Assembly (NCBI RefSeq): GCF_001598055.1
Contig: NZ_CP014844.1
Coordinates: 3,437,642-3,501,641, forward strand
DNA from: Cupriavidus nantongensis
GTDB lineage: Bacteria; Pseudomonadota; Gammaproteobacteria; Burkholderiales; Burkholderiaceae
Direction: 5' to 3'
DNA: 64,000 bases
The notes under the pieces were generated by a model. It saw only the letters and a list, made by a program, of their open reading frames with translations, ran no database searches and was not told the DNA's origin. How positions within the stretch are numbered: the first letter of the stretch is position 1; each line of letters starts with the position of its first letter. Position numbers and translations under genes: made by a program. This document shows, one piece after another, positions 8,170 to 20,930 of this stretch.

Positions 8170-10482
8170 TCAGCGCAGGAAGCCCAGCGGCCGGTGCTCG
8201 CGCACCTCGGGCTTGATCGCATGCTCCTGGCGCAGCTGCGCCAGGAATTCATCAGGCGTCAGCGCCTCGCCCAGCAGTACGCACTGGCGCTTGACCGTGG
8301 CAAAGTCGCCAGGCGTCAGGCAGTCCATCGCGGCCAGGTCCGCGCGCATGGCATCGGTCAGGCCAGCGGCGTCGCCGTCGAGCGCCTCGTCGACAAACAT
8401 CGCCACGCGTTGCGCCGGCTTGAGCGCCAGGAAGCGGATCTTGAACGAGAAGCGGCGCAGCGCGGCCTCGTCGATGCGGTCGAACAGGTTGGTGGTGCAG
8501 ATGAAGATGCCGTTGAAGCGCTCCATGCCCTGCAGCATCTCGTTGACCTCTGATATCTCGTAATTGCGCACCGCCTGCTGGCGGCTCTGCATGAAGCTGT
8601 CGGCCTCGTCCAGCAGCAGCACCGCGCCGTCCTCTTCCGCGCGCGCGAACATCGCGGCGATCTGCTGCTCGGTCTCGCCCACATACTTGCTCATCAGGTC
8701 CGAGGCGCGCCGGATCATCAGCGGCAGGTCCAGCTCGGCCGCGATATGCTCGGCCAGCGCGGTCTTGCCGGTGCCCGGCGGGCCATAGAAGCACAACGTG
8801 CCGCGCTGGCGCACGCTCAGCGCGTCCACTATCTTGACCACATCGTAGCGGGTCTCGAGGTGCAGGTTCTCGAGCCGGTAGTGCGTGACCACCGGGCGCG
8901 CCTCGGCCTCGGGGCGCAGGCCCATGGCGCGGTCGGCATGTTCGAGCTGGCGCAGGATCAGCGCCTCCACCGGTTCTTCCACCGGGTCTTCCAGATGCGG
9001 CCGCGCCAGTTCGACAAAGCGCGCCGCCGATTGCACCTGCGCCGGCGTCAGCGTCTTGCGCGCGGCCAGCCCGGTGATAAAGGCATCGCTGACGTCGAGC
9101 CCGCCCAGGTGCTTGCGGATGATGTTTTCGCGCACCAGCGGCGGCGGAATCTTCAGCTCCAGGTGGAACTGGAAGCGGCGCAGGTAGGCCGGGTCGATCT
9201 GCCGGATCGAATTGGAAATCCAGATCACCGGCACCGGGTTCTGCTCCAGCGTCTGGTTGACCCAGGCCTTGCCGTTGACCGACGCGCGCGTGTCCTCCTG
9301 GCCGAACAGGCTCATCAGCTCGCGCGCACTGCCCGGGAACACGTCTTCGACTTCATCGAACAGCAGCGCGGTATGGGCGCGCCCGCGCAGGAACGCCTGC
9401 GACACCTGCAGCGAGCGGTAGCGGTCCTTGCCCGACAGGCTGTTGCCGTCGCGATCAAGGCAATCGACCTCATACAGCTCGCAGCCGGCCTCGCGCGCCA
9501 GCAGCCGCGCGAATTCGGTCTTGCCGGTGCCGGGCGGACCGTAGATCAGCACGTTGACGCCGCTGGCGTGCTGCTGCGTGGCATTGGCCAGCAGCGCGCG
9601 CAGGTAGCGCGCATCGGTCTCCACATGCGGATAGTCGGCGGTGGTCAGCGTGGGCGGCGCGGCCGGGCGGGTGAAGACCGCCATCATCTCGGCCTCGTTG
9701 GCGTAGTTGCCGAGCAGCACGTGCAGCAGCCGGTCCGACAGCCGCATCAGGTCGCCCAGGTCGGTCACGCTGTTTTCGGGCAGCGGCTGCTCGATCAGGT
9801 TGAGCGTCTCCAGCCGCGAGCCCGGCCGCAGCGACGCCGCCACGTCGGCCGCACCGGCGCCGGTCAGGCCGGCCAGGATCTGGAACGCCTCCTGGCTGTG
9901 CGCGACCTTGCAGTCGACCATCACCGCGCGCAGGTCGCGCTTGTACTTGGCCAGCGCGGCATACAGCAGCAGCTTGCGCTCATGGTCGGGCAGGTCCAGC
10001 ACGTGGCTGAGCATGTCGATATTGCGCACCAGCAGCACGCGCTCGCCCTCGAGCCGCTGGGCGATGGCCGCGGCCGACGCGTCGAACACCGCGAACATGT
10101 CCTTGGCGTGGTGCTTGACGTACTCGTCGAGGTAATAGAACAGCGCGCTTTCGTCGAAGGCGCTGTTCCACTGACCGTGGCGGTCGAGGAATTCTTCGGG
10201 GGTCAGGCGCGCCGCGCCCTTCCAGGCGGGCATGTCGGCGCAGCGCGCGGCCAGGAAGCGCTGCACCCGCAGCACCACGCCATACGGCCACACCATCTCC
10301 TGCGCGCTGACGGTCAGGACATCGTTGATATTGCTGCGCAGGTTGAAGCGCGGGCCCAGCGCGCAGACCACGCGCAAGGCGAACTGCGCGCACATCCAGT
10401 CCAGCGCCGAGCTGGACGATGCTCCCGGCATGGAGCGCAGCAGCGTCGATCGGTCATCTTCAGCAAAACGTGTGAAGTCCAT
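8170..10482 (-). CDS. Two-module AAA+ ATPase of unknown role
   Basis: A 770-residue cytosolic protein with two AAA+ ATPase cores. Module 1 has Walker A GPPGTGKT at about 315-322 and Walker B LLFDEVED at 373-380. Module 2 has Walker A at 567-574 and Walker B LLLDEADS at 622-629, with the AALRRF arginine-finger region near 673-678. The first 290 residues match no domain I recognise and include helical, Leu-rich segments. The second module resembles the FtsH/CDC48-type AAA clade (MSKYVGETEQQI). Partners and substrate are unknown, and no protease or vWA-domain gene lies next to it. The ATG at 10482 is chosen; the frame is open a further 19 codons upstream. Confidence 0.85.
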   Translation of the reverse strand: MDFTRFAEDDRSTLLRSMPGASSSSALDWMCAQFALRVVCALGPRFNLRSNINDVLTVSAQEMVWPYGVVLRVQRFLAARCADMPAWKGAARLTPEEFLDRHGQWNSAFDESALFYYLDEYVKHHAKDMFAVFDASAAAIAQRLEGERVLLVRNIDMLSHVLDLPDHERKLLLYAALAKYKRDLRAVMVDCKVAHSQEAFQILAGLTGAGAADVAASLRPGSRLETLNLIEQPLPENSVTDLGDLMRLSDRLLHVLLGNYANEAEMMAVFTRPAAPPTLTTADYPHVETDARYLRALLANATQQHASGVNVLIYGPPGTGKTEFARLLAREAGCELYEVDCLDRDGNSLSGKDRYRSLQVSQAFLRGRAHTALLFDEVEDVFPGSARELMSLFGQEDTRASVNGKAWVNQTLEQNPVPVIWISNSIRQIDPAYLRRFQFHLELKIPPPLVRENIIRKHLGGLDVSDAFITGLAARKTLTPAQVQSAARFVELARPHLEDPVEEPVEALILRQLEHADRAMGLRPEAEARPVVTHYRLENLHLETRYDVVKIVDALSVRQRGTLCFYGPPGTGKTALAEHIAAELDLPLMIRRASDLMSKYVGETEQQIAAMFARAEEDGAVLLLDEADSFMQSRQQAVRNYEISEVNEMLQGMERFNGIFICTTNLFDRIDEAALRRFSFKIRFLALKPAQRVAMFVDEALDGDAAGLTDAMRADLAAMDCLTPGDFATVKRQCVLLGEALTPDEFLAQLRQEHAIKPEVREHRPLGFLR

Positions 10483-10760
10483 GAACGGGTCCCCGAGCGC
10501 GCGATGCGCAATGGCGGGCCGCGACAGGCGCACCGCCACGTCTGCAGTGTCTTTCTATGCTAGCGCGCTTTCCCGCCCTGCGGGCGCGCCCGTGCGCGGC
10601 CGGCGCGGGCCAGGGTGGCCTGGGGCACCAAACGCGCGCGCAGCGATGGCGTGTCCACGCGCATGACTCAACCGTGTTTGGCCCCCTTCCAATTTGCTAC
10701 CGGGACTTGCCGGTATAACGCGCGAGGGCGGAAAATTCCAGTTGCGGCGCACAAATCACA

Positions 10761-10779
10761 ACAAATAAGAATCATTATC
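10761..10779. promoter_or_regulatory. Fur box upstream of the tonB operon
   Basis: The 19-mer here matches the classical Fur consensus (GATAATGATAATCATTATC) at 14 of 19 positions, with the right half AATCATTATC perfect. It lies in an AT-rich patch about 75 bp before the small ORF and 190 bp before tonB, so iron-repressed transcription is the natural reading. The gap 10483-10852 also contains the AAA+ gene's promoter side; the remaining ~250 bp (10483-10740) shows nothing recognisable. Confidence 0.75.
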
Positions 10780-10852
10780 GTTTATACTCACCCGCTGACA
10801 CGCTGCCCCAGAGTGGCGCTCCCACGTCAACCCAGTTGAAGGAGCGTTTATC

Positions 10853-10918
10853 ATGGAATTGCTGCTTAGCCTGCTGGTCGGTTGCGGCATCTCGCTGATC
10901 CTGTTCTACCGCAAGTGA
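10853..10918 (+). CDS. 21-residue single-pass membrane peptide upstream of tonB
   Basis: A tiny frame of 21 codons plus stop beginning MELLLSLLVGCG and ending ILFYRK. It is almost wholly hydrophobic with a basic C-terminus, as for a one-helix inner-membrane peptide. Its start has an excellent ribosome-binding site (AAGGAG, about 8 bases upstream), stronger than that of tonB, and it lies between a Fur box and tonB with 51 bases to the tonB ATG. I do not recognise a family. It could be a functional small protein of the TonB-ExbB-ExbD machine, or a translated leader that sets tonB expression. Confidence 0.55.
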   Translation: MELLLSLLVGCGISLILFYRK

Positions 10919-10969
10919 CGGCGCACGGCCGCCAAGGTGTCGCCGCCGGCAGACTTTTGTTGTTGACAC

Positions 10970-11626
10970 ATGTTCGACCAACGCTTCTTAAAGATTACGC
11001 TCGCCGTCCTGCTGTTCCACGTCGGCCTGCTTTACCTGATCCAGAGCGGCCTGGGCCGCAAGCTCACCGAGGCCGTGATCGCGCCGGAAATCATCGCGCG
11101 CATCATTCCGCTCGAACCGCCCAAGCAGGAGGCCCCGCCCGAGCCACCCAAGCCGAAGCCCAAGCAGGAAACCCCGCCCAAGCAGGTCAAGGTGACCACG
11201 CCCAAGCCAACGCCGCCGCAGCCCAGGCCGGCACCGCAGCCGGTCGCCGACCTGCCGCCGACGCCTTCGGCACCTGAAGCGCCGCCTGCCCCGCCGGCGC
11301 CCCCGGCACCGCCCGAGCCCGCCCCGGCACCGGTGTCGGCCGCGCCGCGCGCGGTCGGCATCGGCGAAATCCAGTGCACGCCGCCGCAACCGAAGTATCC
11401 TTCCCAGTCGCGCCGCATGGGCGAGACCGGCAAGACCGTGGTGCGGCTGACCACCGATGAAAGCGGCAAGGTCGTCAAGACCGCCGTGGTGTCGTCGAGC
11501 GGCTCGTCGCGCCTTGACCAGGCCGCGGTCGACGCCGTGCAGGCGATGCGCTGCAAGCCCTATATGGACAACGGCCGCGCCGTCGCCGTCACGGCGCAGC
11601 AGCCGATCGGCTTCGAGCTGAACTGA
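10970..11626 (+). CDS. tonB: Energy transducer TonB
   Basis: Carries proton-motive-force energy from ExbB/ExbD to outer-membrane receptors for siderophores or heme. The 218 residues show an N-terminal transmembrane anchor (about 9-27), a Pro/Lys then Pro/Ala spacer (about 48-125) built from PPKPKPKQE-like and PAPPAPPAP runs, and a C-terminal TonB domain with PKYPSQSRRMGETG and the MRCKPYMDNGR segment. exbB and exbD follow on the same strand and a Fur box lies upstream, so iron control of the set is likely. No TonB-dependent receptor gene is in the window. Confidence 0.93.
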   Translation: MFDQRFLKITLAVLLFHVGLLYLIQSGLGRKLTEAVIAPEIIARIIPLEPPKQEAPPEPPKPKPKQETPPKQVKVTTPKPTPPQPRPAPQPVADLPPTPSAPEAPPAPPAPPAPPEPAPAPVSAAPRAVGIGEIQCTPPQPKYPSQSRRMGETGKTVVRLTTDESGKVVKTAVVSSSGSSRLDQAAVDAVQAMRCKPYMDNGRAVAVTAQQPIGFELN

Positions 11627-11689
11627 CCGCCCCGGATTTCCGATCTCTGATCTGACCTAAACCAAGCGAACTCACCAGGAAACCAACAC

Positions 11690-12418
11690 ATGCAGGACCT
11701 CGGACTCACCCACCTCTGGTCGCAAGGCGACTTCGTCATGCGTGCGACCGCCATCATTCTGCTGATCATGTCGCTCGCCTCATGGATCGTGATCCTGACC
11801 AAGGCGTGGGATCTGGTGCGCCTGAAGAAGATGGCGCAAGGCGCGGAAAAGCGCTTCTGGCACTCGGACGATTTCGACCACGCGCTGGAAACCCTGGGCG
11901 CCGGCGATGCCAACCCGTTCCGCACGCTCGCCATCGCCGGCAAGGAAGCCGCCCAGCACCACCGCGCCAGCCAGCCGCAGCTGCACGACGTGATGGATAT
12001 CTCCGACTGGCTGACCCGCTCGCTGAAAAGCTCCATCGATGAATCGGTGGCGCGCATGCAATCGGGCCTGGCGGTGCTGGCCTCGGTGGGCTCGACCGCG
12101 CCGTTCGTCGGCCTGTTCGGCACCGTGTGGGGCATCTACCACGCGCTGATCGGCATCGGCGCCTCGGGCGTGCCGACCATCGACAAGGTTGCCGGCCCGG
12201 TGGGCGAGGCGCTGATCATGACCGCCTTCGGCCTGGCCGTGGCAATCCCCGCCGTGCTGGGCTATAACGCCCTCACCCGCGGCAACAAGTCGGTGATCTC
12301 GAAGCTCAACCGCTTTGCCCACGACCTGCACGCCTACTTCGTCACCGGCGCGCGCGTGCGCCCCACCGGCGCCCGCGCCGAGGACGGCACCGTGCGCCTG
12401 GCCGCGGCACAGCGCTAA
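11690..12418 (+). CDS. exbB: Biopolymer transport protein ExbB
   Basis: MotA/TolQ/ExbB proton channel subunit of the TonB motor in the inner membrane. The 242 residues have three hydrophobic helices: about 16-40, 127-150 and 172-195. The conserved VGSTAPFVGLFGTVWGI motif sits at the start of the second helix and the GPVGEALIMTAFGL motif at the third. AGGAAA precedes the ATG. It lies 63 bases after tonB and 21 bases before exbD, consistent with one transcript. Confidence 0.95.
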   Translation: MQDLGLTHLWSQGDFVMRATAIILLIMSLASWIVILTKAWDLVRLKKMAQGAEKRFWHSDDFDHALETLGAGDANPFRTLAIAGKEAAQHHRASQPQLHDVMDISDWLTRSLKSSIDESVARMQSGLAVLASVGSTAPFVGLFGTVWGIYHALIGIGASGVPTIDKVAGPVGEALIMTAFGLAVAIPAVLGYNALTRGNKSVISKLNRFAHDLHAYFVTGARVRPTGARAEDGTVRLAAAQR

Positions 12419-12439
12419 ACCGCAAGCAAGGAAGTCATC

Positions 12440-12853
<414 letters not shown>

Positions 12854-12891
12854 GCAGCAAGCCGGCGCCTGCGGGCGCTGCTGGGAACGAC

Positions 12892-12916
12892 AAAGGGCAC
12901 CTTCGGGTGCCCTTTT
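12892..12916 (+). terminator. Intrinsic terminator after exbD
   Basis: AAAGGGCAC / GTGCCCTTT stem (12892-12900, 12907-12915) with a CTTCGG tetraloop-type loop and a T tract. Confidence 0.85.
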
Positions 12917-13004
12917 GTCATGGTGCCGGCCGCTTGCATACAAACGTCTGCCCGCGCCGCGCCACCGCGACGTAGTCGTTGCCTGAATCTTAGCGAGAGA
13001 CTAT

Positions 13005-13023
13005 TGTAATGATAACAATTCTC
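13005..13023. promoter_or_regulatory. Fur box upstream of hemP
   Basis: The TAATGATAA core plus flanks matches the 19-bp Fur consensus at 14 of 19 positions and lies in an AT-rich island about 90 bp before the hemP start. Together with the box at 10761 it frames the tonB-exbBD and hemP transcripts as iron-regulated. Confidence 0.7.
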
Positions 13024-13112
13024 ATTTAATATTCTTCCATCGACTGCGCCAGGCGCGGCATCGCCGCCCCGGATCGCACTCCCCTTACTCTCCTATCGCA
13101 GAACGGAGCCAG

Positions 13113-13445
13113 ATGATGAGCACTCTTTCCCTGCCACTGTCGCAACCCCGTGAAGTCACCCGCCGCCGCCTGTCGCTGCGCCGCGTCGACGTGGCCGCGC
13201 AGCCGCGCCGGGACGCCGGCGCCAAGACCGCGCCGTCGGCGATCGCCTCGGTCAAGTCCGCCGTGGCCGCCCTACCGGCGCGCCTGGAAGCGCTGGTGCG
13301 CGACAGCCTGAGCTCGGCGCCCGCCGGCGAGCCGGTGGCGCTGGACGCGATCATGCGCGGTGCCAGCACGCTGCCGATCCTGCACAACGGCGAGGTCTAT
13401 ACGCTGCGCGTGACGCGCTATGGGAAGCTGATCCTGACCAAATGA
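13113..13445 (+). CDS. hemP: Hemin uptake protein HemP
   Basis: Small protein of the HemP family (PF10636), in Burkholderiales linked to activation of heme uptake genes (HmuP-type). The 110 residues end in the diagnostic block HNGEVYTLRVTRYGKLILTK; the N-terminal 60 residues are Arg/Ala-rich and poorly conserved, longer than the ~60-residue core of most HemP proteins. The ATG at 13113 (or the adjacent one at 13116) follows GGAG. A Fur box sits upstream. The gene is followed by a hairpin-rich untranslated stretch and a strong terminator, not by receptor genes. Confidence 0.85.
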   Translation: MMSTLSLPLSQPREVTRRRLSLRRVDVAAQPRRDAGAKTAPSAIASVKSAVAALPARLEALVRDSLSSAPAGEPVALDAIMRGASTLPILHNGEVYTLRVTRYGKLILTK

Positions 13446-13448
13446 CTC

Positions 13449-13684
13449 GGCCCCGCGGCGATTCCGCAAGAAGACAGCCAGGGTTAGCGATTCGAAACCC
13501 GCGCCAGGCGCGGACGCCACGAACGTGGCAGTAAAGACTTTTGTGGGGACCACCTCGGAACGAGGTGTTGGGCAGTAGCCAGGTATGCGTGCCGCGGGCG
13601 GGAGTCAGACCCCACGCCAGGCCGGCCGTACCCAGCCATGCCCTCTTTTATGCCGCCCCGCAGGCCGTGCCTGCGGGGCTTTTT
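13449..13684 (+). ncRNA. Candidate structured RNA or hairpin-rich 3' UTR of hemP
   Basis: The ~210 bases after hemP have no supported ORF but several perfect short hairpins in tandem: CCGCGC/GCGCGG (13499-13513), GCCAC/GTGGC (13516-13529) and CACCTCG/CGAGGTG (13551-13567). The last is inside an outer GTGGGG/CCCCAC pair (13543-13548 with 13610-13615). A strong intrinsic terminator closes the stretch. This layout suits a discrete stable RNA, possibly released from the iron-controlled hemP transcript. I see no signature of 6S, tmRNA, RNase P or SRP RNA. The call rests on folding by eye only. Confidence 0.35.
13655..13684 (+). terminator. Strong intrinsic terminator
   Basis: Perfect 11-bp stem GCCCCGCAGGC / GCCTGCGGGGC with a CGT loop and a T5 tract. 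It ends the hemP-side transcript just before the convergent GlcG-like gene. Confidence 0.9.
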
Positions 13685-13714
13685 CATGCGCCGGCGCCAG
13701 CGCCGGCGCTTGCC

Positions 13715-14122
13715 TTACAGGCCCAGCGCGGCGATGCCGGCACGCGCGACCTGCGCGTCCTCGGTCGACTTCACGCCGGACACGCCGACGGCGCCGACCA
13801 CCTGCTCGTTGCAGACGATGGGCACGCCGCCCTCCAGCATGCCCTGCAGCACCGGCGCGGTCATGAACGAGTAGCGGCCGTTGTTGATCATGTCTTCGTA
13901 GACCTTCGACTCACGGCGGCCCAGCGCCGAGGTACGGGCCTTCTCGCCGGCGATATAGGCCGAGATCGGCGCGGCGCCGTCCAGGCGCTGCATGGCCAGC
14001 ATATGGCCGCCGTCGTCGACCACGACGATCGACACGGCCCAGTGATGGTTCTTTGCCTCGGTTTCCGCTGCGGCCATGATCTTCTTCACGTCGTCTGCCG
14101 TCAGAACCGTCTTTTGCTGCAT
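13715..14122 (-). CDS. GlcG/HbpS-family heme-binding-type protein
   Basis: A 135-residue single-domain protein of the Haem_degrading/GlcG family (PF03928, formerly DUF336). Visible family features are VVVDDGGHMLAMQRLDGA in the first half, YIAGEKARTSALGR in the middle and GGVPI...GAVGVSG at the end. Members bind heme or cobalamin-like ligands or accompany glycolate genes, and the exact role here is not known. Its position beside hemP favours a heme link. The ATG at 14122 has AGGAGA upstream; the frame is open further upstream but runs into a poly-C tract. Confidence 0.82.
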   Translation of the reverse strand: MQQKTVLTADDVKKIMAAAETEAKNHHWAVSIVVVDDGGHMLAMQRLDGAAPISAYIAGEKARTSALGRRESKVYEDMINNGRYSFMTAPVLQGMLEGGVPIVCNEQVVGAVGVSGVKSTEDAQVARAGIAALGL

Positions 14123-14206
14123 GCCACTCTCCTGGTCATTGATTTGGATTGAGGCCGAAGTATAGCGCCGCACCTGTGCCACCGTCATGGCAGGCGACCC
14201 GCCGTG

Positions 14207-14217
14207 CCCCCCCCCCC
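14207..14217. repeat. Poly-C homopolymer of 11
   Basis: Eleven consecutive C residues flanked by CCGTG and GCACGG, upstream of the GlcG-like gene start (14122). Long G/C homopolymers are prone to slippage in cells and to miscalls in sequencing. Confidence 0.9.
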
Positions 14218-14236
14218 GCACGGTACCCACCACGGC

Positions 14237-14258
14237 AAAATGGCCCGCGAGCGGGCCA
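14237..14258 (-). terminator. Intrinsic terminator after the 12-residue-repeat gene
   Basis: TGGCCCGC / GCGGGCCA stem (14241-14258, two-base loop), followed on the minus strand by TTTT. Confidence 0.75.
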
Positions 14259-14287
14259 TCGATCATGCGAGGATTGCAGCAGTGCGC

Positions 14288-14545
14288 TCAGGCACCATCG
14301 GTGAACGGATCCGGCTTGCCGATCCTGGCGCCATCGGTATACGGGTCGGTCTTGCCGACGCGCGCGCCATCGGTGAACGGGTCGGGCTTGCCGACCTTGG
14401 CGCCATCGGTGTACGGGTCGACTGCGCCGACCTTGGCGCCGTCGAGATACGGGTCGACCTTGCCGACCGCGGCGAACGAGGCGGTGGACGCAGTGCCCAG
14501 GAACGCCAGTGCGGCGGCGGCAATCACGGCTTGTTTGATCTTCAT
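14288..14545 (-). CDS. Small exported protein made of five 12-residue repeats
   Basis: An 85-residue protein I cannot assign to a family. Residues 1-26 form a good Sec signal peptide (MKIKQ, hydrophobic core, ASFA cleavage site). The rest is five tandem 12-residue units of the form VGKxDPYTDGAK (27-38, 39-50, 51-62, 63-74 and a final 11-residue unit at 75-85). The mature chain is thus almost pure repeat, with acidic and Gly-rich turns of the DPYTDG type that could bind metal ions. The start ATG at 14545 follows AAGGGGA. A terminator lies directly downstream, so it is monocistronic. Function unknown. Confidence 0.75.
   Translation of the reverse strand: MKIKQAVIAAAALAFLGTASTASFAAVGKVDPYLDGAKVGAVDPYTDGAKVGKPDPFTDGARVGKTDPYTDGARIGKPDPFTDGA
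14291..14467 (-). repeat. Five tandem 36-bp coding repeats
   Basis: Direct repeats of 36 bp (last one 33 bp), each encoding a 12-residue unit. The copies differ mainly at the codons for residues 3-4 and 7, so they are diverged rather than freshly expanded. Confidence 0.85.
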
Positions 14546-14750
14546 GAGATTCCCCTTGCTTCTTGGTTGGTCACGGCATCGCACGCCAGATAAATCAGCG
14601 TCATCGCGATGTCACACAAGTAGTTTAGGGAAAACCCTTACGCAGATGCAGGTGATGCTTTGAGCAGTCTGTTCAAATATTTTGACCTCGATCAAATTGC
14701 GCCAGAAAGCCCGGAACCAGCCCGGCATCGTTATGTCGCAATGCAGCGCC

Positions 14751-14784
14751 AAAAGGAAAGGGCCCGCAAGCGGGCCCTTTCCTT
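14751..14784 (-). terminator. Intrinsic terminator after the YYGPP-repeat gene
   Basis: Perfect 15-bp stem AAGGAAAGGGCCCGC / GCGGGCCCTTTCCTT with a 2-base loop, followed on the minus strand by T-rich sequence. Confidence 0.85.
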
Positions 14785-14805
14785 CAGGACAAAGCGGATC
14801 GAAGA

Positions 14806-15156
14806 TCAGTCGCGCCACCTGCCGTGACCGTGACCATGCCCGTGGCCGCGGTGATAGCCCGGCGGGCCATAGTAGCCGCGGTGACCGCCGTAATAGCGCG
14901 GCGGACCGTAATAGCCAGGACCGTAGTAGACCGGGCGCGGGCGAACCACCACCGGCGGCGGACCGTAATAGACCGGAGCCGGTGCCACCACGACGGGCGG
15001 CGGACCATAGTAGGCCGGAGCGGGCGGATAATACGCCGGCGCACCGATCACCACGCCCGGAACGCCGACGGACACGCCAACGCTGACATGGGCCATGGCT
15101 GCGCCAGACGCCAACCCGGCGGCAATACCGAATGCTGCAAGCCACCAACGTTTCAT
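14806..15156 (-). CDS. Exported Pro/Tyr/Gly-rich PXPV-type repeat protein
   Basis: A 116-residue low-complexity protein. Residues 1-22 are a signal peptide (AMA cleavage site). The mature part holds repeated VYYGPPPVVV and YYGPP units and a His/Gly tail (RGHGHGHGHGRW) that could bind metal ions. PXPV-repeat exported proteins of this kind are common in Burkholderiales and have no defined function. It has its own terminator and lies upstream of another small exported repeat protein on the same strand. Confidence 0.75.
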   Translation of the reverse strand: MKRWWLAAFGIAAGLASGAAMAHVSVGVSVGVPGVVIGAPAYYPPAPAYYGPPPVVVAPAPVYYGPPPVVVRPRPVYYGPGYYGPPRYYGGHRGYYGPPGYHRGHGHGHGHGRWRD

Positions 15157-15410
15157 ATCCGCCTCTCAAAGTGGGATTTCTCGTAACTGGTATTGTAGGG
15201 GTTCGGAAATTTCCAGGTGCAACGGCGCACACGACATTGTTACCAGCCGTAACAGTGTCGTCACTTTTCGCGCGAGGCTGGTCTGAGGGGCTCGGCGTGT
15301 TGGCGTCCCGCCCTTCGATCTAAGCCGCAGCTTGCATCCGCGATGCGCAGCCACCACAATATCGGGCTTGCCGCGCGCTGCAGCAACAGGAATCCAGACG
15401 CAGCGCTCGC

Positions 15411-15718
15411 GCCCGAGTGGTGAAATCGGTAGACACAAGGGACTTGAAAATTTGAGCCTTCGGGGGGAAACGCCCGAAGTGACGCCCGTCAAAGTCGGCG
15501 AACGCCCTGGATCCATCGTATCCGAGCCAACGCCGAGCCAAGCCCGACCGCATGGCCGGGAAGGTGTAGAGAGCAGACGGCGGGCACCTACGGCCGCGAG
15601 GCTATGGTGAAGGCGTGCTCCAGACCACGAACAGCGTCCGCGCTGGCGGCGAAAGCCGAAGTGGGAAGAAAATCCCTCGCCGCAAGGCGTGCCGGTTCGA
15701 TTCCGGCCTCGGGCACCA
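15411..15718 (+). tRNA. tRNA-Leu(UAA), interrupted by a group I intron
   Basis: Exon 1 is 15411-15445 and exon 2 is 15669-15718. Joined they give an 85-nt class II tRNA: acceptor stem GCCCGAG/CTCGGGC, D arm with AAATCGGTAGA, anticodon stem AGGGA/TCCCT with loop CTTAAAA (anticodon TAA), a variable arm CGCCGCAAGGCG, the T arm GGTTCGATTCC and an encoded CCA end. The closest well-known relative is E. coli leuZ. The intron lies between anticodon bases 34 and 35, the same site used in cyanobacterial tRNA-Leu(UAA). Unspliced, the gene cannot make a working tRNA, so removal of the intron is needed for decoding UUA, and UUG by wobble. Confidence 0.93.
15446..15668 (+). ncRNA. Group I intron (IC3-like) in the tRNA-Leu anticodon loop
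   Basis: A 223-nt intron with no ORF. It starts after U34, where exon bases CUU can pair with intron GAG (15454-15456) to give the U-G pair of P1, and it ends in G15668. P2 is CTTCGGG/CCCGAAG with a GAAA-type loop (15458-15479 region). Blocks ACGCCGAGCCAAGC, GGTGTAGAGA and CTATGGTGAAGGC match the Azoarcus tRNA-Ile ribozyme almost exactly. P7 is GAGCA (15571-15575) with TGCTC (15616-15620), where Azoarcus has GACTA/TAGTC, a compensatory change. A P9-type hairpin GGC-GAAA-GCC lies near the 3' end. Comparison with Azoarcus is from memory. Confidence 0.92.
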
Positions 15719-15801
15719 ATTCCGGTCGACAGCCTTTGCATGGCGGCGACCGCTGCGAGCCGCTGGTCGCTCTGACGGCTGCCGCATCCGTGCAGTAAAA
15801 C

Positions 15802-15825
15802 AAAAAGGGGGCCATCGCCCCCTTT
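15802..15825 (-). terminator. Terminator between tRNA-Leu and yeiH-like gene
   Basis: AAAGGGGGC / GCCCCCTTT stem with a 4-base loop. The T-rich tail is on the minus strand (downstream of the exporter gene), but the hairpin may also stop the convergent tRNA-Leu transcript. Confidence 0.75.
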
Positions 15826-15849
15826 CCCCTCGGCGCCCGGCTGACGCCG

Positions 15850-16962
15850 TCACGCCATGGCGTAGCACATCAGCGCCCCTACCCCGATCAGGAACACGAA
15901 CAGCACCCCTGCCAGCGCCAGCGGCTTGCGGCCGGCGCGCACCAGGTCGCCGATGCGGGTGTGCAGGCCGATCGCCAGCATCGCGCAGGCCAGCAGCCAG
16001 TTGTCCAGCGCGATCAGCGGCGCCTTCCAGGCAGCGGGCACGGCCCCGGCCGAGTTCACCGCCATCACCGCGACAAAGCCCACCGCGAACCACGGCACCG
16101 ACTTCATGATGCCGCGCAGGCGGCCGGCGCCGGCGCCGGAGCCCGACTCGGCCGCTTGCGAGCCGCCCTGCGGCCACAGCGCCATCACCAGCAGCAGCGG
16201 GCCCAGGGCCAGCACGCGCACCATCTTGGCCACCACGGCGGCGTCGGCGGTCGGCTCGCTGATCATCTTGCCGGCGGCGATCACCTGCGCCACCTCGTGC
16301 AGCGTCGCCCCGGTGAAGATGCCGAACATGCGCTCGCTGACGGCCCAGTGCCAGTGGCCCGTGGCCAGTTCGTACAGGTAGGGATAGAGCAGCATGCCGA
16401 CGGTGCCGAACAGCACCACCGTCGCCACTGCCACCGCAGTCTGCTTGTCGTCGGTGCGCACCACCGACGACACCGCGATGGCCGCGGCGGCGCCGCAGAT
16501 GGCGCTGCCGGAACTGACCAGGATCGCCTCGCGGCGGCTCAGCCCGAAGAAACTTGTGCCGACCCAGGTACCGAACAGCAGCGTGGCGACCAGCATGGTC
16601 AGCGGCACGGCGATGCCCGGCAGGCCCAGCGCGACGATCGAGGCGAAGGTCAGGCGCAGCCCGTACAACGCCACGCCCAGCCGCAGCAGATAGTGCCGCG
16701 CTACCTGCATGCCGGGGGCCAGCGGCGCCAGCCAATGGCGCGGCAGCGTATTGGCCGCGACCATGCCGGCGCACATGGCCAGCGTCAGCGCGCTGAGCCC
16801 GTAGCGCGATACCGCCGGATGCTCGGCCAGCGCAATCGCCAGCCAGGCGATGCCGCCCAGCGGCAGCAGCGTCAGCAAGCGCTGCGACCAGGGCGGCGGC
16901 AAGGCCGCCGCGGCAGTTGGCGCGGTGACCGGAGTGGTGCGGGGGCTGGAGACGGAAGACAT
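15850..16962 (-). CDS. YeiH/UPF0324 family putative sulfate exporter
   Basis: Integral membrane protein of 370 residues with about ten hydrophobic helices, family Cons_hypoth698 (PF03601). Conserved stretches seen are RLGVALYGLRLTF, SSGSAICGAAAAIA, FGIFTGATLHEVAQV and the C-terminal LIGVGALMCY. The family is annotated as a sulfate/sulfite-type exporter on limited evidence. It is divergent from a LysR-type gene across a 99-bp region with stacked palindromes, the same arrangement as yeiH-yeiE in E. coli, so the neighbour very likely controls it. Confidence 0.9.
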   Translation of the reverse strand: MSSVSSPRTTPVTAPTAAAALPPPWSQRLLTLLPLGGIAWLAIALAEHPAVSRYGLSALTLAMCAGMVAANTLPRHWLAPLAPGMQVARHYLLRLGVALYGLRLTFASIVALGLPGIAVPLTMLVATLLFGTWVGTSFFGLSRREAILVSSGSAICGAAAAIAVSSVVRTDDKQTAVAVATVVLFGTVGMLLYPYLYELATGHWHWAVSERMFGIFTGATLHEVAQVIAAGKMISEPTADAAVVAKMVRVLALGPLLLVMALWPQGGSQAAESGSGAGAGRLRGIMKSVPWFAVGFVAVMAVNSAGAVPAAWKAPLIALDNWLLACAMLAIGLHTRIGDLVRAGRKPLALAGVLFVFLIGVGALMCYAMA

Positions 16963-17015
16963 GGCAGGCTCGGGTTGGTGTGCTTTAGTGACTCAAGCGT
17001 AATGGCGCCCACCTA

Positions 17016-17055
17016 ACCCGTAAAACGGGTAATATCGTTATGCGTTATTGATATT
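17016..17055. promoter_or_regulatory. Stacked inverted repeats in the LysR/yeiH-like divergent promoter
   Basis: Two adjacent dyads: ACCCGT-AAA-ACGGGT (17016-17030) and AATATC...GATATT (17031-17036 with 17050-17055). They abut exactly and end 6 bp before the LysR start codon, a typical place for an autoregulating LysR site. The second dyad has the T-N11-A spacing style of LysR boxes. The binding protein is inferred. Confidence 0.55.
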
Positions 17056-17061
17056 TTCGAT

Positions 17062-18003
17062 ATGGACCTCCACCCCCACCCGCCAGCCGCGCCGCGGCCG
17101 GAGCAGCGCCCGCTGCGCCTGACGCTGCGCCAGTTGTCCGTCTTTGTCGCGGTGGCTCAGCATGGCAGCACCATGGCGGCAGCCCAGGCGCTGGCGATGT
17201 CGCAGTCAGCGGTCAGCGCGTCGCTGGCGGAGCTGGAGCGCGCGCTGGACAGCCCGCTGTTCGACCGCATCGCGCGCCGTCTCAGCATCAATGAGACCGG
17301 TCGGCAATTTTTTCCGCGCGCGCTGTCGCTGCTGGACCAGGCGCAGGAGCTGGAGCGTTTTGCCACCCAGACCGGGGTCCAGCTGCGCATCGCCGCCAGC
17401 AACACCATCGGCAGCTATATGCTGCCGCCGCTGCTGGCGGGCTTCCGCCACTCGCGCAGCGGCCCGTGCACGCTGGACCTGCGCATTGGCAATACCCGCG
17501 AGGTGCTGCAGTCGCTGCTGCAGTTCGAAGCCGATATCGGCCTGGTCGAAGGCGCCAGCCATGAACGCGACCTGCGCAGCGTGCGCTGGTGCGACGACGA
17601 GATGGTGGTGATCGTCGGCCCGTCCCATCCGCTGGCCGCGGCGCCGCATGACCTGGTCGCCCTGCGCGATGCCGAGTGGATCGTGCGCGAGCCCGGCTCG
17701 GGCACGCGCGAGGTGATCGAGGAGCGGCTGGTGCCGCTGCTCGGGGAGCTGCGCTTCGCGCTGGAACTGGGCAATGCCGAGGCCATCAAGCGCGCGGTGA
17801 TGAGCGGCTTTGGCGTCAGCTGCCTGTCGCTGCATGTGGTGCGCGACGAACTGGAGCGCGGCACGCTGGTGGCGATCCGCGACGGCCTGCCGCGCATTGT
17901 GCGCCCGCTGCAACTGGTGGTGCACCAGGACAAGTTCCCGACCCAGGGGCTGCTGGCATTCACCGAATACCTGCGCACCATGGCGCCGCGCATCGGCGCC
18001 TGA
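17062..18003 (+). CDS. LysR-family transcriptional regulator (YeiE-like)
   Basis: A 313-residue LysR-type regulator: a winged helix-turn-helix at about 20-80 (LTLRQLSVFVAVAQHGSTMAAA, then SQSAVSASLAELERAL) and a substrate-binding domain after about residue 105 (LRIAASNTIGSYMLPPLL). It is divergently placed against the yeiH-like exporter, as yeiE is in enterics, so control of that gene and itself is the likely job. The coinducer is unknown. The first 20 residues are Pro-rich and lie before the domain, so the ATG at 17062 is the only suitable nearby ATG. Confidence 0.93.
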   Translation: MDLHPHPPAAPRPEQRPLRLTLRQLSVFVAVAQHGSTMAAAQALAMSQSAVSASLAELERALDSPLFDRIARRLSINETGRQFFPRALSLLDQAQELERFATQTGVQLRIAASNTIGSYMLPPLLAGFRHSRSGPCTLDLRIGNTREVLQSLLQFEADIGLVEGASHERDLRSVRWCDDEMVVIVGPSHPLAAAPHDLVALRDAEWIVREPGSGTREVIEERLVPLLGELRFALELGNAEAIKRAVMSGFGVSCLSLHVVRDELERGTLVAIRDGLPRIVRPLQLVVHQDKFPTQGLLAFTEYLRTMAPRIGA

Positions 18004-18026
18004 ACGGTGCCCCGCCGGAATACCCC

Positions 18027-19259
18027 TCAGGCCGGCTGGGGATCGGCGCCGCGGCCGCGGCGCGCAGTGTACAGGTCGAGCATGTGGAACAGCACGGGAT
18101 TGAGCATGATCGACAGCAGCGCGCCGGCCAGGATCAGCGCCTGGCCGCGCTCCGGCAGGATCTTCAGATAGACGCCCAGGCTGGCGAGGATGAACGAGAA
18201 CTCGCCGATCTGCGCCAGGCTGACGGCAATGGTCATGCCGGTCTGCCCCGAATGCCCGAAGGCGCGCACGATGCCGAGCGCCGCCAGCGACTTGCCAACC
18301 ACGATGATAAACACGGTCGCCAGCACGCCCCAGGGGTCGTTCACCAGCACCATCGGGTCGAACAGCATGCCCACCGAAACGAAGAACAGCACGGCGAAGG
18401 CATCGCGCAGCGGCAGCGATTCCTCGGCGGCGCGATGGCTGAATTCGGATTCCGCCAGCACCATGCCCGCGAAGAACGCGCCCAGCGCAAACGACACGCC
18501 GAACAGCGCATAGGCGCCATAGGCCACGCCCAGCGCCGTCGCCAGCACGCCCAGGCGGAACATCTCGCGGTTGCCGGTCCAGACGATGCGCTCGAGCATC
18601 CACGGGATAAAGCGGCGGCCGATCACCAGCATCACCGCGACGAACGCCGCCACCTTGCCCAGCGTGGCGAAGATCGCCAGCACCACCTCGCCCGTGCCCG
18701 GGCCGGCCTCGCCGGCAGCCGCGCCCGCGCCGGCCAGCAGGCCCGCCATCGCCGGCAGCAGCACCAGCGCCAGCACCATCGCCAGGTCTTCGACGATCAG
18801 CCAGCCGACGGCGATGCGCCCCTGCGGCGATTCCACCAGGTCGCGCTCCTGCAGTGCCTTGAGCAGCACCACGGTGCTGGCCACCGACAGCGCCAGCCCG
18901 TACACCAGCCCCTGCCCCCACGACCAGCCGAAGCCCCACGACACCAGCATGCCCATCAGCGTGGCGATGCCGATCTGCACCACCGCGCCCGGAATGGCGA
19001 TGCGCTTGACCGCCATCAGGTCCTTGATCGAGAAATGCAGGCCCACGCCGAACATCAGCAGGATCACGCCCAGCTCGGCCAGTTCCGGCGCCAGCGCCTG
19101 GTCGGCGGTGTAGCCGGGGGTATGCGGCCCCACCACGATGCCCGCGCACAGGTAGCCGATCAACGGCGGCAGGCGCAGCCGGCTGGCGACCGCGCCAAGG
19201 ATAAAGGCCAGGACGATACCGCCGACGATGGTACTGATAAGCGGGGTGGCGTGATGCAT
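18027..19259 (-). CDS. CPA2-family cation:proton antiporter (YbaL/KefB-like membrane domain only)
   Basis: A Na+/K+:H+ exchanger of 410 residues with 11-13 hydrophobic helices. Signature runs include LIGYLCAGIVVGPHTPG near residue 30, SVASTVVLLKALQ, VGWLIVEDLAMVLALV and IAVSLAQIGEFSFILASLG. Full-length YbaL and KefB proteins continue into a cytosolic NAD-binding RCK (TrkA-N) domain. Here the chain stops 20 residues after the last helix, at RRGRGADPQPA. The truncation looks natural (clean stop, LysR gene converging 23 bp away). The ATG at 19259 is preferred over an upstream GTG-type start. Confidence 0.88.
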   Translation of the reverse strand: MHHATPLISTIVGGIVLAFILGAVASRLRLPPLIGYLCAGIVVGPHTPGYTADQALAPELAELGVILLMFGVGLHFSIKDLMAVKRIAIPGAVVQIGIATLMGMLVSWGFGWSWGQGLVYGLALSVASTVVLLKALQERDLVESPQGRIAVGWLIVEDLAMVLALVLLPAMAGLLAGAGAAAGEAGPGTGEVVLAIFATLGKVAAFVAVMLVIGRRFIPWMLERIVWTGNREMFRLGVLATALGVAYGAYALFGVSFALGAFFAGMVLAESEFSHRAAEESLPLRDAFAVLFFVSVGMLFDPMVLVNDPWGVLATVFIIVVGKSLAALGIVRAFGHSGQTGMTIAVSLAQIGEFSFILASLGVYLKILPERGQALILAGALLSIMLNPVLFHMLDLYTARRGRGADPQPA

Positions 19260-19585
19260 GCGTGCGGGGTTCCTCGTGTCAGGGGCTGAACGGCTAACCC
19301 GCTCCCTTGCCCTGGCGAGTGGCACAGCGCATCCGGCGCGCACCAGCGGTCAGCGCGGGACAGTCGCCACAACCCTCGGCAGCAGCATCGGAACGGGGAA
19401 GAACGGGAAATGCCGCAGCGGCCCCGGACACGCCGGCGGCGCGTCACGGATCGGGGATGGCGATTGACATGCTGCCCCGCGAGCCAAGCCGCGGAGCCCC
19501 CCGAAAAGCGTACGACAGGAGTAATGTAACATGCCCGCCACGTCCGGGCGGCGCAGCCGGGCCATGAAAGCGGCCGCGAAAACAA
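19260..19585. other. Intergenic region without recognisable gene
   Basis: About 325 bp between the antiporter start and the terminator of the tRNA-Cys transcript. It must carry the antiporter promoter. Open frames here have no family features or ribosome-binding sites. I see no tRNA, repeat or operator. Confidence 0.6.
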
Positions 19586-19609
19586 AAAACGGCGCCAAAA
19601 GGCGCCGTT
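19586..19609 (-). terminator. Terminator of the tRNA-Cys transcript
   Basis: AACGGCGCC / GGCGCCGTT stem with a 4-base loop and, on the minus strand, a T6 tail. Confidence 0.85.
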
Positions 19610-19620
19610 CTGCTTGCAAC

Positions 19621-19694
19621 TGGAGGCGGAGGTCGGAATCGAACCGGCGTACACGGCTTTGCAGGCCGCTGCATAACCACTCTGCCACCCCGCC
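19621..19694 (-). tRNA. tRNA-Cys(GCA)
   Basis: 74 nt including encoded CCA. Acceptor GGCGGGG/CTCCGCC, D arm GCAGAGTGGTTATGC, anticodon loop CTGCAAA (GCA) and T arm GGTTCGATTCC. It is the last gene of the run pgsA-tRNA-Gly-tRNA-Gly-tRNA-Cys, as in the E. coli glyW-cysT order. Confidence 0.95.
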
Positions 19695-19788
19695 AGGTGA
19701 CGTGCTGCTGGATTGTATCCGCATTCAGCCGCGGCTGCCGCAGCGCTTCGATGCGGCATGCCGCTGTGCGGCGCTTCAACCCAAACAA

Positions 19789-19811
19789 AAAGGGAAGCGT
19801 GGCTTCCCTTT
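19789..19811 (-). terminator. Terminator between tRNA-Gly and tRNA-Cys
   Basis: Perfect 10-bp stem AAAGGGAAGC / GCTTCCCTTT, 3-base loop, T-rich tail on the minus strand. It separates the two tRNA-Gly genes from tRNA-Cys, which then needs readthrough or its own promoter. Confidence 0.8.
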
Positions 19812-19817
19812 GGGGAT

Positions 19818-19893
19818 TGGAGCGGGAGACGAGTCTCGAACTCGCGACCTCAACCTTGGCAAGGTTGCGCTCTACCAACTGAGCTACTCCCGC
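19818..19893 (-). tRNA. tRNA-Gly(GCC), copy 2
   Basis: 76 nt with encoded CCA. Acceptor GCGGGAG/CTCCCGC, D arm AGCTCAGTTGGTAGAGC, anticodon loop with GCC inside AACCTTGCCAAGGTT and T arm GAGTTCGAGACTC. It is identical over its whole length to the copy at 19954. Confidence 0.96.
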
Positions 19894-19953
19894 ATACAAC
19901 TTTGACTGCCAGCCCCGCACCGCGATGACCACGCTGCCGGACCTGATTTGACC

Positions 19954-20029
19954 TGGAGCGGGAGACGAGTCTCGAACTCGCGACCTCAACCTTGGCAAGG
20001 TTGCGCTCTACCAACTGAGCTACTCCCGC
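19954..20029 (-). tRNA. tRNA-Gly(GCC), copy 1
   Basis: 76 nt, the same sequence as the downstream copy, 60 bp apart. It lies about 170 bp downstream of the pgsA stop on the same strand, so the Gly copies could be on the uvrC-pgsA transcript or have their own promoter. Confidence 0.96.
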
Positions 20030-20201
20030 AGGGCACTACTGAAATCGAATCAAAGGCGTTTTATGCTGCAACACGCCGATATCTCACAACATCTTGCGCT
20101 AAACCCACCTTATCTCGCTGCTTTCGTTTGCGTCGTCAGCAACGAGAATGAGATTATGCAAAGAACTGCCCTCCCCGTCAACCACTTTTTCGATTTTCTT
20201 T

Positions 20202-20801
20202 TCATTTGGGCGCGCCTGCGCGCGCCACCACGTTGCTGCGTTCGCGGATCTGCGGCCACGCCAGCTTCATGTAGTAGATCATCGACCACAGCGTCAGCAC
20301 CGCGGCGACATAGATCATCCAGGTGCCGAGCAAATGGGCATCGAAGCCGAACAGGCGGTCGCTGAACAGCAGCAGCGGAATCGCGACCATCTGTACGGTG
20401 GTCTTGAGCTTGCCGAGGAAATTCACCGCGACGCTCTTGGACGCGCCGATCTGCGCCATCCACTCGCGCAGCGCCGAAATGGTGATCTCGCGCCCGATGA
20501 TGACCAGCGCGATCAGGTCGGTGACCCGGTCCAGCGCCAGCAGCGACAGCAGCGCCGCGGTCACCATCAGCTTGTCGGCGACCGGGTCCAGGAACGCGCC
20601 GAACGACGAGGTCTGGTTCCAGCGCCGCGCGAGGAAGCCGTCCAGCCAATCCGTCACCGCGGCGATGATGAAGAACGCCGCCGCGGTCAGGTTCTTGGTA
20701 TGCATCGGCAGCCAGGCGTCGGGCAGATAGAAGACCCCTACCACCAGTGGAATCATGGCGACGCGAAGCCAGGTCAGCAGGATCGGGATATTGAAGGGCA
20801 T
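20202..20801 (-). CDS. pgsA: CDP-diacylglycerol--glycerol-3-phosphate 3-phosphatidyltransferase
   Basis: Makes phosphatidylglycerol phosphate from CDP-diacylglycerol and glycerol 3-phosphate in the inner membrane. The 199-residue protein has the CDP-alcohol phosphotransferase motif DG-x2-AR-x8-G-x3-D-x3-D, seen as DGFLARRWNQTSSFGAFLDPVAD from about residue 53, and four to six hydrophobic helices. The ATG at 20801 begins MPFNIPILLTWLR, the usual start of PgsA; the frame is open 43 codons further but without homology. It follows uvrC by 129 bp and precedes the tRNA genes, the conserved uvrC-pgsA-tRNA order. Confidence 0.96.
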   Translation of the reverse strand: MPFNIPILLTWLRVAMIPLVVGVFYLPDAWLPMHTKNLTAAAFFIIAAVTDWLDGFLARRWNQTSSFGAFLDPVADKLMVTAALLSLLALDRVTDLIALVIIGREITISALREWMAQIGASKSVAVNFLGKLKTTVQMVAIPLLLFSDRLFGFDAHLLGTWMIYVAAVLTLWSMIYYMKLAWPQIRERSNVVARAGAPK

Positions 20802-20930
20802 GGAACTCGGACGGCGGGGGGGACGGTAACCAATCCTGCGATTGTCGCCGATTTCGGGGCCAATCGAGCATTTCCGGCGATTGGCACGGCGATTGGCACG
20901 CCGGCCCGCCGTCGGCCAGGGCCGGCGCAC

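Follow-up and report, generated by a model that had tools for sequence, protein, structure and literature searches.

A tRNA-Leu(UAA) gene split by a group I intron in Cupriavidus nantongensis, probably a domesticated spare left by a tRNA-cutting mobile element

We analysed a 64,000-nucleotide stretch of Cupriavidus nantongensis DNA (RefSeq assembly GCF_001598055.1, contig NZ_CP014844.1, positions 3,437,642 to 3,501,641 of the forward strand), here called the window, which contains a tRNA-Leu(UAA) gene interrupted in its anticodon loop by a group I intron. Coordinates refer to the window unless another sequence is named, and the gene has three parts:

15411..15445, + strand: 5′ exon of tRNA-Leu(UAA), last base U34 (ARAGORN on spliced and unspliced DNA)
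15446..15668, + strand: group I intron of 223 nt with a terminal G and no internal open reading frame (ORF) of at least 100 aa (ARAGORN, covariation, covariance model R1)
15669..15718, + strand: 3′ exon of tRNA-Leu(UAA), including the encoded CCA (ARAGORN)

The original prediction, made from the letters alone, proposed a two-exon tRNA of 85 nt carrying a 223-nt group I insertion between positions 34 and 35, and the gene call agrees with it. ARAGORN models the spliced 85-mer, a check of the kind proposed with that prediction, as tRNA-Leu(taa) with a UAA anticodon; it recovers the same split gene from the raw DNA when introns are allowed and reports no tRNA at 15411-15718 when they are not. The intron sits between U34 and A35 (ACTT|intron|AAAATC). 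The predicted terminal G and P1-type U-G pair can both be read from the sequence: the U that ends the 5′ exon faces a guide G (...CUU | GAAAAUUUGAG..., pairing by eye), and the last intron base is G15668. The proposed compact, ORF-less ribozyme was likewise found, since no ORF of at least 100 aa lies inside the 223-nt intron and mechanical ORFs only run across it. Model R1 scores this intron at 261 bits, the window being one of the model's own members. The split gene is the sole tRNA-Leu(UAA) gene found in the 7.1 Mb genome by the arm patterns used. A weak second R1 match in the same genome (L039, G000:C1:3710688-3710821, 22.9 bits) may be due to chance.

The helices of the intron, P2 to P9 including P7, were placed by hand from nine relatives and compared with 92 family members collected with model R1, a count that includes the window and the members of the model:

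15458..15479, + strand: P2 with a GAAA loop, placed by hand; two-sided changes at 4 of 8 pairs
15485..15490, + strand: P3 5′ strand CCCGTC, partner GGCGGG at 15579-15584; two-sided changes at 4 of 6 pairs, 99.8% paired (n = 92)
15495..15500, + strand: P4 5′ strand TCGGCG, partner at 15531-15536; placed by hand, 92-sequence alignment
15571..15575, + strand: P7 5′ strand GAGCA, partner TGCTC at 15616-15620; two-sided changes at 3 of 5 pairs, 100% paired (n = 92)
15585..15609, + strand: P8 with the motif CCTACG...TATGG; outer P8 98.6% paired
15625..15664, + strand: P9 region with a GAAA loop at 15651-15654; placed by hand, nine-sequence alignment

In the nine-sequence alignment 96.6% of the pairs are standard, and 18 pairs change on both sides compared with a shuffled mean of 6.0 and 2-8 when the strands are slid. 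Jointly, P3, P4, P6, P7 and P8 are 99.5% paired over the 92 members versus 28-47% when slid. P7 is the cleaner test because the fit of the larger alignment used P3, P4, P6 and P8 and left P7 out; this helix is invariant within the nine-sequence set, and across the 92 sequences the covarying GAGCA/TGCTC helix that had been predicted holds up, with 3 of 5 pairs changed on both sides and full pairing. Minimum free energy does not separate the intron from shuffles (z -1.16). The IC3 subgroup has GAAA loops in P2 and P9 with receptors in P8 and P5; here GAAA loops and the CCTACG...TATGG motif in P8 are present, so that the intron may belong to IC3, and its core blocks appear to resemble those of the Azoarcus tRNA-Ile intron. 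On this covariation the group I identity of the intron is secure, and its transcript would be expected to splice itself.

The suggested family tie to tRNA-Ile-type introns gained support, as the single model R1 finds introns in six tRNA types: tRNA-Leu(UAA), Leu(CAA), Ile2(CAU), Arg(CCU), Ser(UGA) and Thr(UGU). By eye, the tRNA-Ser(UGA) introns sit at 34|35 (L268, L276, L277), those in tRNA-Thr(UGU) at 36|37 (L305, L306) and those in tRNA-Ile2 apparently at 33|34 (L301, L307, L308). Deeper in the family the intron may have moved between tRNA types.

The surroundings of the split gene were compared with a sample of 60 Cupriavidus genomes, among them C. basilensis KF708 (G020), C. neocaledonicus STM6070 and Cupriavidus sp. 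WGlv3. Matches to R1 occur in 14 of the 60: twelve genomes have a full-length split tRNA-Leu(UAA), G029 has one truncated copy, and G072 has an intron in tRNA-Arg(CCU). An uninterrupted arm of the resident type, GTAGACTCAGCAGACTTAAAATC, is found in 44 of the 46 genomes without an R1 match, the two exceptions being G062 (divergent arm) and G012 (genome 54% complete). By the same kind of pattern, an uninterrupted Leu(UAA) arm went undetected in nine of the twelve split-gene genomes; in G019 and G020 the arm belongs to a cut half only, and in G078 (78% complete) it lies on another contig. The only arms found in the window's genome are two of Leu(CAA). G029, which has an intronless gene at the position of the split gene, aligns with the window in three blocks and in the same order:

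10005..15274, unstranded: left flank, collinear with G029 at its resident tRNA-Leu(UAA) locus, 86.3% identity
15330..15377, + strand: upstream segment in common with the resident locus, 91.7% over 48 nt versus G029, with a putative retained promoter TTGCAT...CACAAT
15798..21904, unstranded: right flank, collinear with G029 at its resident tRNA-Leu(UAA) locus, 90.0% identity

Since the flanks are collinear with an element-free resident locus, there is no element at the window locus. Along the tRNA body, the split gene's exons are unlike the intronless resident tRNA-Leu(UAA). Because the bodies differ and the resident arm goes undetected in most split-gene genomes, a foreign tRNA-Leu gene took the resident's place: the whole split gene, exons included, does not belong to the original stock of the genus and stands where the resident gene used to be. 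The 48-nt block kept upstream may serve as promoter of the split gene; a similar segment occurs in L042, L046 and L048, and a sigma-70 scan reported no site for 15330-15377. In G006 a decayed resident 5′ half (score 46) persists upstream of the split gene, with no 3′ half found, and this genome looks like an intermediate. Nine members of the window's clade have resident-half scores of 12-14. G029 itself also holds the truncated split tRNA-Leu(UAA) mentioned above (L011 / L179, C4 ~1495473), with element-end sequence upstream, and an extra intronless Leu(UAA) at C4:57015.

In two genomes of the genus the element is still in place. In both of them, G019 and G020, the break in the resident gene falls directly after CTTAAAATC; foreign DNA follows, and a complete split tRNA-Leu(UAA) stands about 170 nt further on. 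C. basilensis KF708 (G020) also has the resident 3′ half on the same contig and strand, preceded by foreign DNA, so that the element measures 61,796 bp from core to core. According to the available text of PMC6563109, the integrative and conjugative element (ICE) ICEbphKF708 is 61.8 kb long with the att sequence GATTTTAAG, which is the reverse complement of CTTAAAATC. We therefore take the KF708 element to be ICEbphKF708, by agreement in strain, size and core and not by the published sequence. The same source calls ICEbphKF708 almost identical to ICE-KKS102 Tn4677, described in the accessible part of PMC11448139 as the sole family member with transfer called confirmed. The KF708 element has the features of Tn4371-family ICEs (a tyrosine integrase, TrbI by Pfam and the core CTTAAAATC/GATTTTAAG) and contains an ORF with a Rieske motif; its further Trb and Tra genes were named by eye only. 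The main texts of PMC6563109 and PMC11448139 contain no word beginning with "intron".

The intron of the spare interrupts the element's own core (CTT|intron|AAAATC). In all 26 half-adjacent Leu genes checked, the core is absent from the DNA and present across the joined exons; this follows from the insertion site and hence is not independent evidence. Near its split tRNA (L172 9222-14534) the KF708 element carries an IS481-type transposase ORF, followed by genes for a UvrD-helicase and an OLD-type nuclease. The helicase and nuclease pair recalls the Gabija defence system. A second intron in the KF708 genome, of 236 nt, splits tRNA-Leu(CAA) (L038 / L157).

The same arrangement recurs beyond the genus. 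A scan of named genomes yielded at least 120 loci, of which ARAGORN assigned 114 and left six unassigned; it labelled 71 as Leu(UAA), 28 as CAU (tRNA-Ile2 by sequence), 11 as Leu(CAA), two as Arg(CCU), one as Ser and one, miscalled, as Phe. The program mislabels some split genes, calling Leu(UAA) as Phe(aaa) and Ile2 variants as Ser, Val or Pro. When a half of the gene's own type was sought no more than 320 nt upstream with a score of at least 40, an own 5′ half was found in 27 of the 114 named split genes among the loci listed, compared with none in downstream, distant and shuffled controls. An order-level sample, in which 66 of 72 R1 matches were used and 65 assigned, and which partly covers the same genomes as the named set, gave 10 of 65 loci with controls again at 0. 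Intronless tRNA-Leu genes had an own 5′ half upstream in none of 33 cases, taken from 41 loci given. With a looser cut and two loci added by eye, the named set rises to 31 loci with a half (12 Ile2, 16 UAA and 3 CAA). The anticodon loop of the cut half matches the anticodon of the split gene in all 29 readable halves, and the distance between the two is similar throughout, at 150-205 nt. Beyond these, the Ile2 locus L133 has a decayed half by eye.

The other ends of these elements could be located in part. Matching 3′ halves were found in 9 of 15 UAA genomes and, by eye, in 5 of 10 Ile2 and 2 of 3 CAA genomes, and in neither of two further Ile2 loci (L104, L133; by eye); for Ile2 and CAA, halves were told from intact genes by eye from printed flanks. 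Joined UAA half pairs read as tRNA-Leu(taa) in 7 of 7 cases, each with 7 of 7 acceptor pairs. The joining pattern did not pick up the remaining two of nine pairs, L151 and L131, whose 3′ halves rest on the half search plus the adjoining integrase. By coordinates, same-contig spans are about 51 kb (L151), 66 kb (L082), 41 kb (L081) and 14 kb (L131), and the span at the Ile2 site L112 is only 2.8 kb, with no recombinase signature there. A 400-residue tyrosine recombinase (Pfam PF00589) or its close kin adjoins the 3′ half at 9 of 9 UAA sites, a related recombinase is present at one of two CAA sites, and another recombinase at one of five Ile2 sites. In summary, elements that cut tRNA-Leu(CAA) and tRNA-Ile(CAU) follow the same plan as those that cut tRNA-Leu(UAA). 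Two loci (L073, L163) show a second element geometry: some 175 nt upstream of their split gene they have, in place of a 5′ half, the reverse complement of a resident tRNA-Leu(UAA) 3′ half.

Split tRNA genes of this family also occur in phages, viral contigs and plasmids. Gordonia phage Daredevil (NC_048021.1; L317 1671-2151) has an intron-split tRNA-Lys(UUU) (R1, 128.9 bits) beside a phage integrase gene, and a 16-nt copy of the tRNA-Lys anticodon arm lies between the integrase and the split gene, 169 nt upstream of the latter. The tRNA-Lys gene of a viral contig, L401, is arranged in the same way. The core pattern was found on at least 120 IMG/VR contigs (L320 and up), and 87 of the 120 are split tRNA genes by ARAGORN calls that were not individually checked, including 48 Leu(UAA). 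The plasmid pCTX-M3 (NC_004464.2; L314 4029-4242) carries an unannotated fragment made up of a tRNA-Leu 5′ exon and a complete group I intron (R1, 149.9 bits). In L314 and L315 (Citrobacter, Aeromonas) an aac(3)-II resistance gene is found close to this fragment, which has matches in 1,289 of 72,556 plasmid records, mostly from Escherichia, Klebsiella, Salmonella and Acinetobacter. A plasmid of Bradyrhizobium sp. ISRA443 (L316 4995-5284) has a split tRNA-Leu(UAA) with a 204-nt intron about 750 bp from trbI, and no cut Leu half was seen around it. The window gene itself turned up on neither plasmids nor phages: the best-covering plasmid matches are 67-70% identical and no phage record covers 80%, in searches from which records near the window's genome may be excluded.

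We also approached the elements from the integrase side, in 399 Burkholderiales genomes of which 12 have the integrase (E to 1e-60) and 61 have R1 matches; integrase ends were read by eye. Four integrases adjoin a tRNA-Leu core: those of G437:C21 and G435:C17 (91-92% identical) at GATTTTAAG, and those of G435:C1 and G353 (68 and 61%) at GATTTTGAG. Three of the four share their contig with a split tRNA, at distances of about 43, 50 and 65 kb. Eight further integrases lie at T-rich non-tRNA ends, some of which read TTTTTCAT (G282, G317, G193, three in G220, G136 and one in the window's genome). A nearby split tRNA accompanies none of these eight: five of the genomes have no R1 match, and in the window's genome the split gene is 344 kb off. 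That last integrase (L234, G000:C1:3107807-3109009) is 66% identical. Five integrase rows were left unclassed (G200 with a stop, and pieces in G250, G385 and, twice, G437:C19).

A tree of 128 Leu introns places the window inside a Cupriavidus clade of 11 (95/93). Only this clade and near-identical groups are used here, as the bootstrap was unconverged, branches are long and L079 is a wrong extract (branch ~10). Near-identical introns borne on elements occur across classes: those of Lysobacter concretionis and the Burkholderiales genome G437 are identical, and those of Hydrogenophaga, Variovorax and G435 are equal. Paraburkholderia forms one clade with Burkholderia and Trinickia. A split tRNA-Leu(CAA) labelled Mycobacterium sp. 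(L160) groups with proteobacterial introns and perhaps comes from a misbinned contig.

We consider it probable, with good confidence, that mobile elements bring along a split spare for the tRNA gene that they disrupt, and that the window holds such a spare in domesticated form. The sequences themselves show the cut target, the spare with its matching anticodon, the intron within the core, for UAA the integrase at the opposite end, and in the window a solitary split gene at the resident locus. In relatives the resident tRNA gene is cut within the anticodon loop and stays cut; the spare probably replaces the function so destroyed, its precursor splicing itself and restoring the anticodon loop in the RNA. 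In the lineage of the window the body of the element would since have been lost and the spare alone kept.

As the intron splits the core in the DNA, the element's own integrase would have difficulty using the spare as a target, and it is plausible that the intron hides the spare in this way. Whether elements use a self-splicing ribozyme for that purpose, so that the core exists only after RNA splicing, we regard as a little short of an even bet. The plan seen in Gordonia phage Daredevil and in viral contig L401 speaks for the idea. It is weakened by genes such as L059, whose intron begins with A's and in which the loop heptamer thus persists in the DNA, as it does in 10 of 110 genes, and by the rarity of core-like arm copies near the split tRNAs of viral contigs (2 of 87).

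Several further results count against the domesticated-spare explanation as a whole. The window has no element, core repeat or tRNA half (resident-half score 14 versus 46 in G006), and because no element remnant is left there its element origin rests on its kin. The TTA codon is absent from the four window genes counted, and the need for a tRNA-Leu(UAA) is thus not evident. The 5′ half was undetected in 83 of the 114 named split genes. Swapped half pairs form a mean of 4.6 acceptor pairs, yet 11 of 42 reach seven, so stem pairing alone is weak evidence. G353 has its integrase at a tRNA-Leu(CAA) core and gives no R1 match even with deeper scoring; its element runs off the contig end. On viral contigs an anticodon-arm copy is nearby in 2 of 87 cases (L394 being marginal); a random non-cognate arm gives 1 of 87 and shuffles give none, which indicates that split tRNAs travel for other reasons too. 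As to the intron itself, the Rfam covariance check suggested with the original prediction did not confirm it: release 15 returned no group I match for the window, whether at the gathering cut-off or at E 1 or 10, and matched none of five relatives' intron loci as group I (a sixth source, L271, is without the intron), in both cases in runs without a positive control. This silence may reflect the reach of the Rfam model and not be evidence against the fold.

The strongest competing explanation is that the intron is a passive passenger: tRNA genes are carried by elements and phages alike, and the overlap of the intron with the recombination core would be a coincidence of two systems that both prefer the anticodon loop. 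It is a serious contender, if somewhat short of even odds: split tRNAs lacking a nearby core copy are common on viral contigs (85 of 87), L059 retains its heptamer, and G353 is without a split gene. Coincidence accounts less well for the shared anticodon loop of spare and cut gene in every readable case (29 of 29), for the similar distance to the cut half (150-205 nt), and for the recurrence of the plan with three tRNAs, with a different integrase in one Ile2 element, and in phage Daredevil.

A second alternative concerns the window only, where the split gene could have arrived by homologous recombination with transferred chromosomal DNA instead of by insertion of an element there. The clean flanks and the lack of a core repeat or half are what this would leave behind; G006 with its decayed resident 5′ half (score 46) upstream, and G019 and G020 with the element still present, speak for insertion within the genus, and we consider recombination unlikely. 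Ancient vertical inheritance at the cyanobacterial tRNA-Leu(UAA) site is, judged from the non-cyanobacterial introns compared, very improbable: the tRNA is the same, and some host groups (such as Paraburkholderia with Burkholderia and Trinickia) are monophyletic in the intron tree, but the gene is patchy in the genus (12 of 60), identical introns cross classes, and the resident locus holds a foreign tRNA body. That the intron moved alone, by homing or reverse splicing, into the resident Cupriavidus gene is scarcely credible, for although the insertion site is precise and the genus holds both split and intronless genes, the intron has no endonuclease-sized ORF, the split-gene exons are unlike the resident gene along the tRNA, which contradicts an intron-only move, and in G019 and G020 an intact split gene stands next to the cut resident one. 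The three origins offered by the original prediction (independent insertion, ectopic transposition of the intron, an ancient shared site) do not fit the locus, because a foreign split gene replaced the resident and relatives carry the split gene on integrative elements.

The domesticated-spare reading suggests that a mobile copy which depends on a ribozyme can take the place of a tRNA gene. It would provide tRNA introns with a means of spread that makes clear selective sense, in elements of a family under laboratory study, and offers a natural test of whether an intron shields a gene from site-specific recombination. Split genes may also explain tRNA-Leu(UAA) calls missing from annotation. If the hiding idea is true, an element could target the anticodon loop and the cell would be tied to the element, decaying elements would seed group I introns into bacterial genomes, and much of the uneven distribution of tRNA introns among proteobacteria would be explained.

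How tRNA introns that lack an endonuclease spread has been a standing question in the field. In 2002 Vepritskiy and colleagues (J Bacteriol) reportedly described a Pseudomonas with a group I intron in its tRNA-Leu(UAA) gene. The bacterial tRNA introns of Azoarcus (Ile), Agrobacterium (Arg), cyanobacteria (Leu(UAA)) and Pseudomonas (Leu(UAA)) are likewise small anticodon-loop ribozymes, with conserved core blocks and P3/P7 pairing as here. Such introns are known in cyanobacteria and in alpha- and betaproteobacteria (PMC4033280, PMC8450103, available text), including tRNA-Ile2 of Acidovorax and Burkholderia (PMC8450103). In tmRNA, group I introns occupy one loop of an RNA gene that also serves islands as an integration site, and the accessible part of PMC11915505 draws no link between intron and integration core. 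A literature search over titles and the starts of abstracts, with most subscription journals outside its reach, found no bacterial split-spare case.

Of the Tn4371-family ICEs ICEbphKF708 and ICE-KKS102 Tn4677, the KF708 element matches the former in strain, size and core (GATTTTAAG). ICEclc-type islands share the tyrosine recombinase, the tRNA target and the direct repeats; the usual islands keep one complete tRNA through duplication of the attachment site (PMC6563109, PMC9897764, as far as their available text goes), whereas here the resident stays cut. Archaea offer a parallel: in disrupted tRNA genes there, a putative recombinase separates a tRNA fragment from a copy that contains an intron (Sugahara 2012, PMC3293823, accessible part), and a mobile element with an intron-bearing attP has been proposed (Sugahara 2012, PMC3293823; PMC8371274, in part). 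A suggestion by Randau and Soll, cited in the available text of PMC4033280, sees split tRNA genes as protection against integration. Those cases involve archaeal tRNA introns and not group I introns, whereas ours are group I ribozymes in bacteria and one actinophage. Group I introns in tRNA genes are thus a known kind, and earlier reports, among them PMC4033280 and PMC8450103 in their accessible parts, regard the intron as the unit that moves or is inherited; what appears to set the present system apart is that the whole split gene moves with the element that cuts its tRNA.
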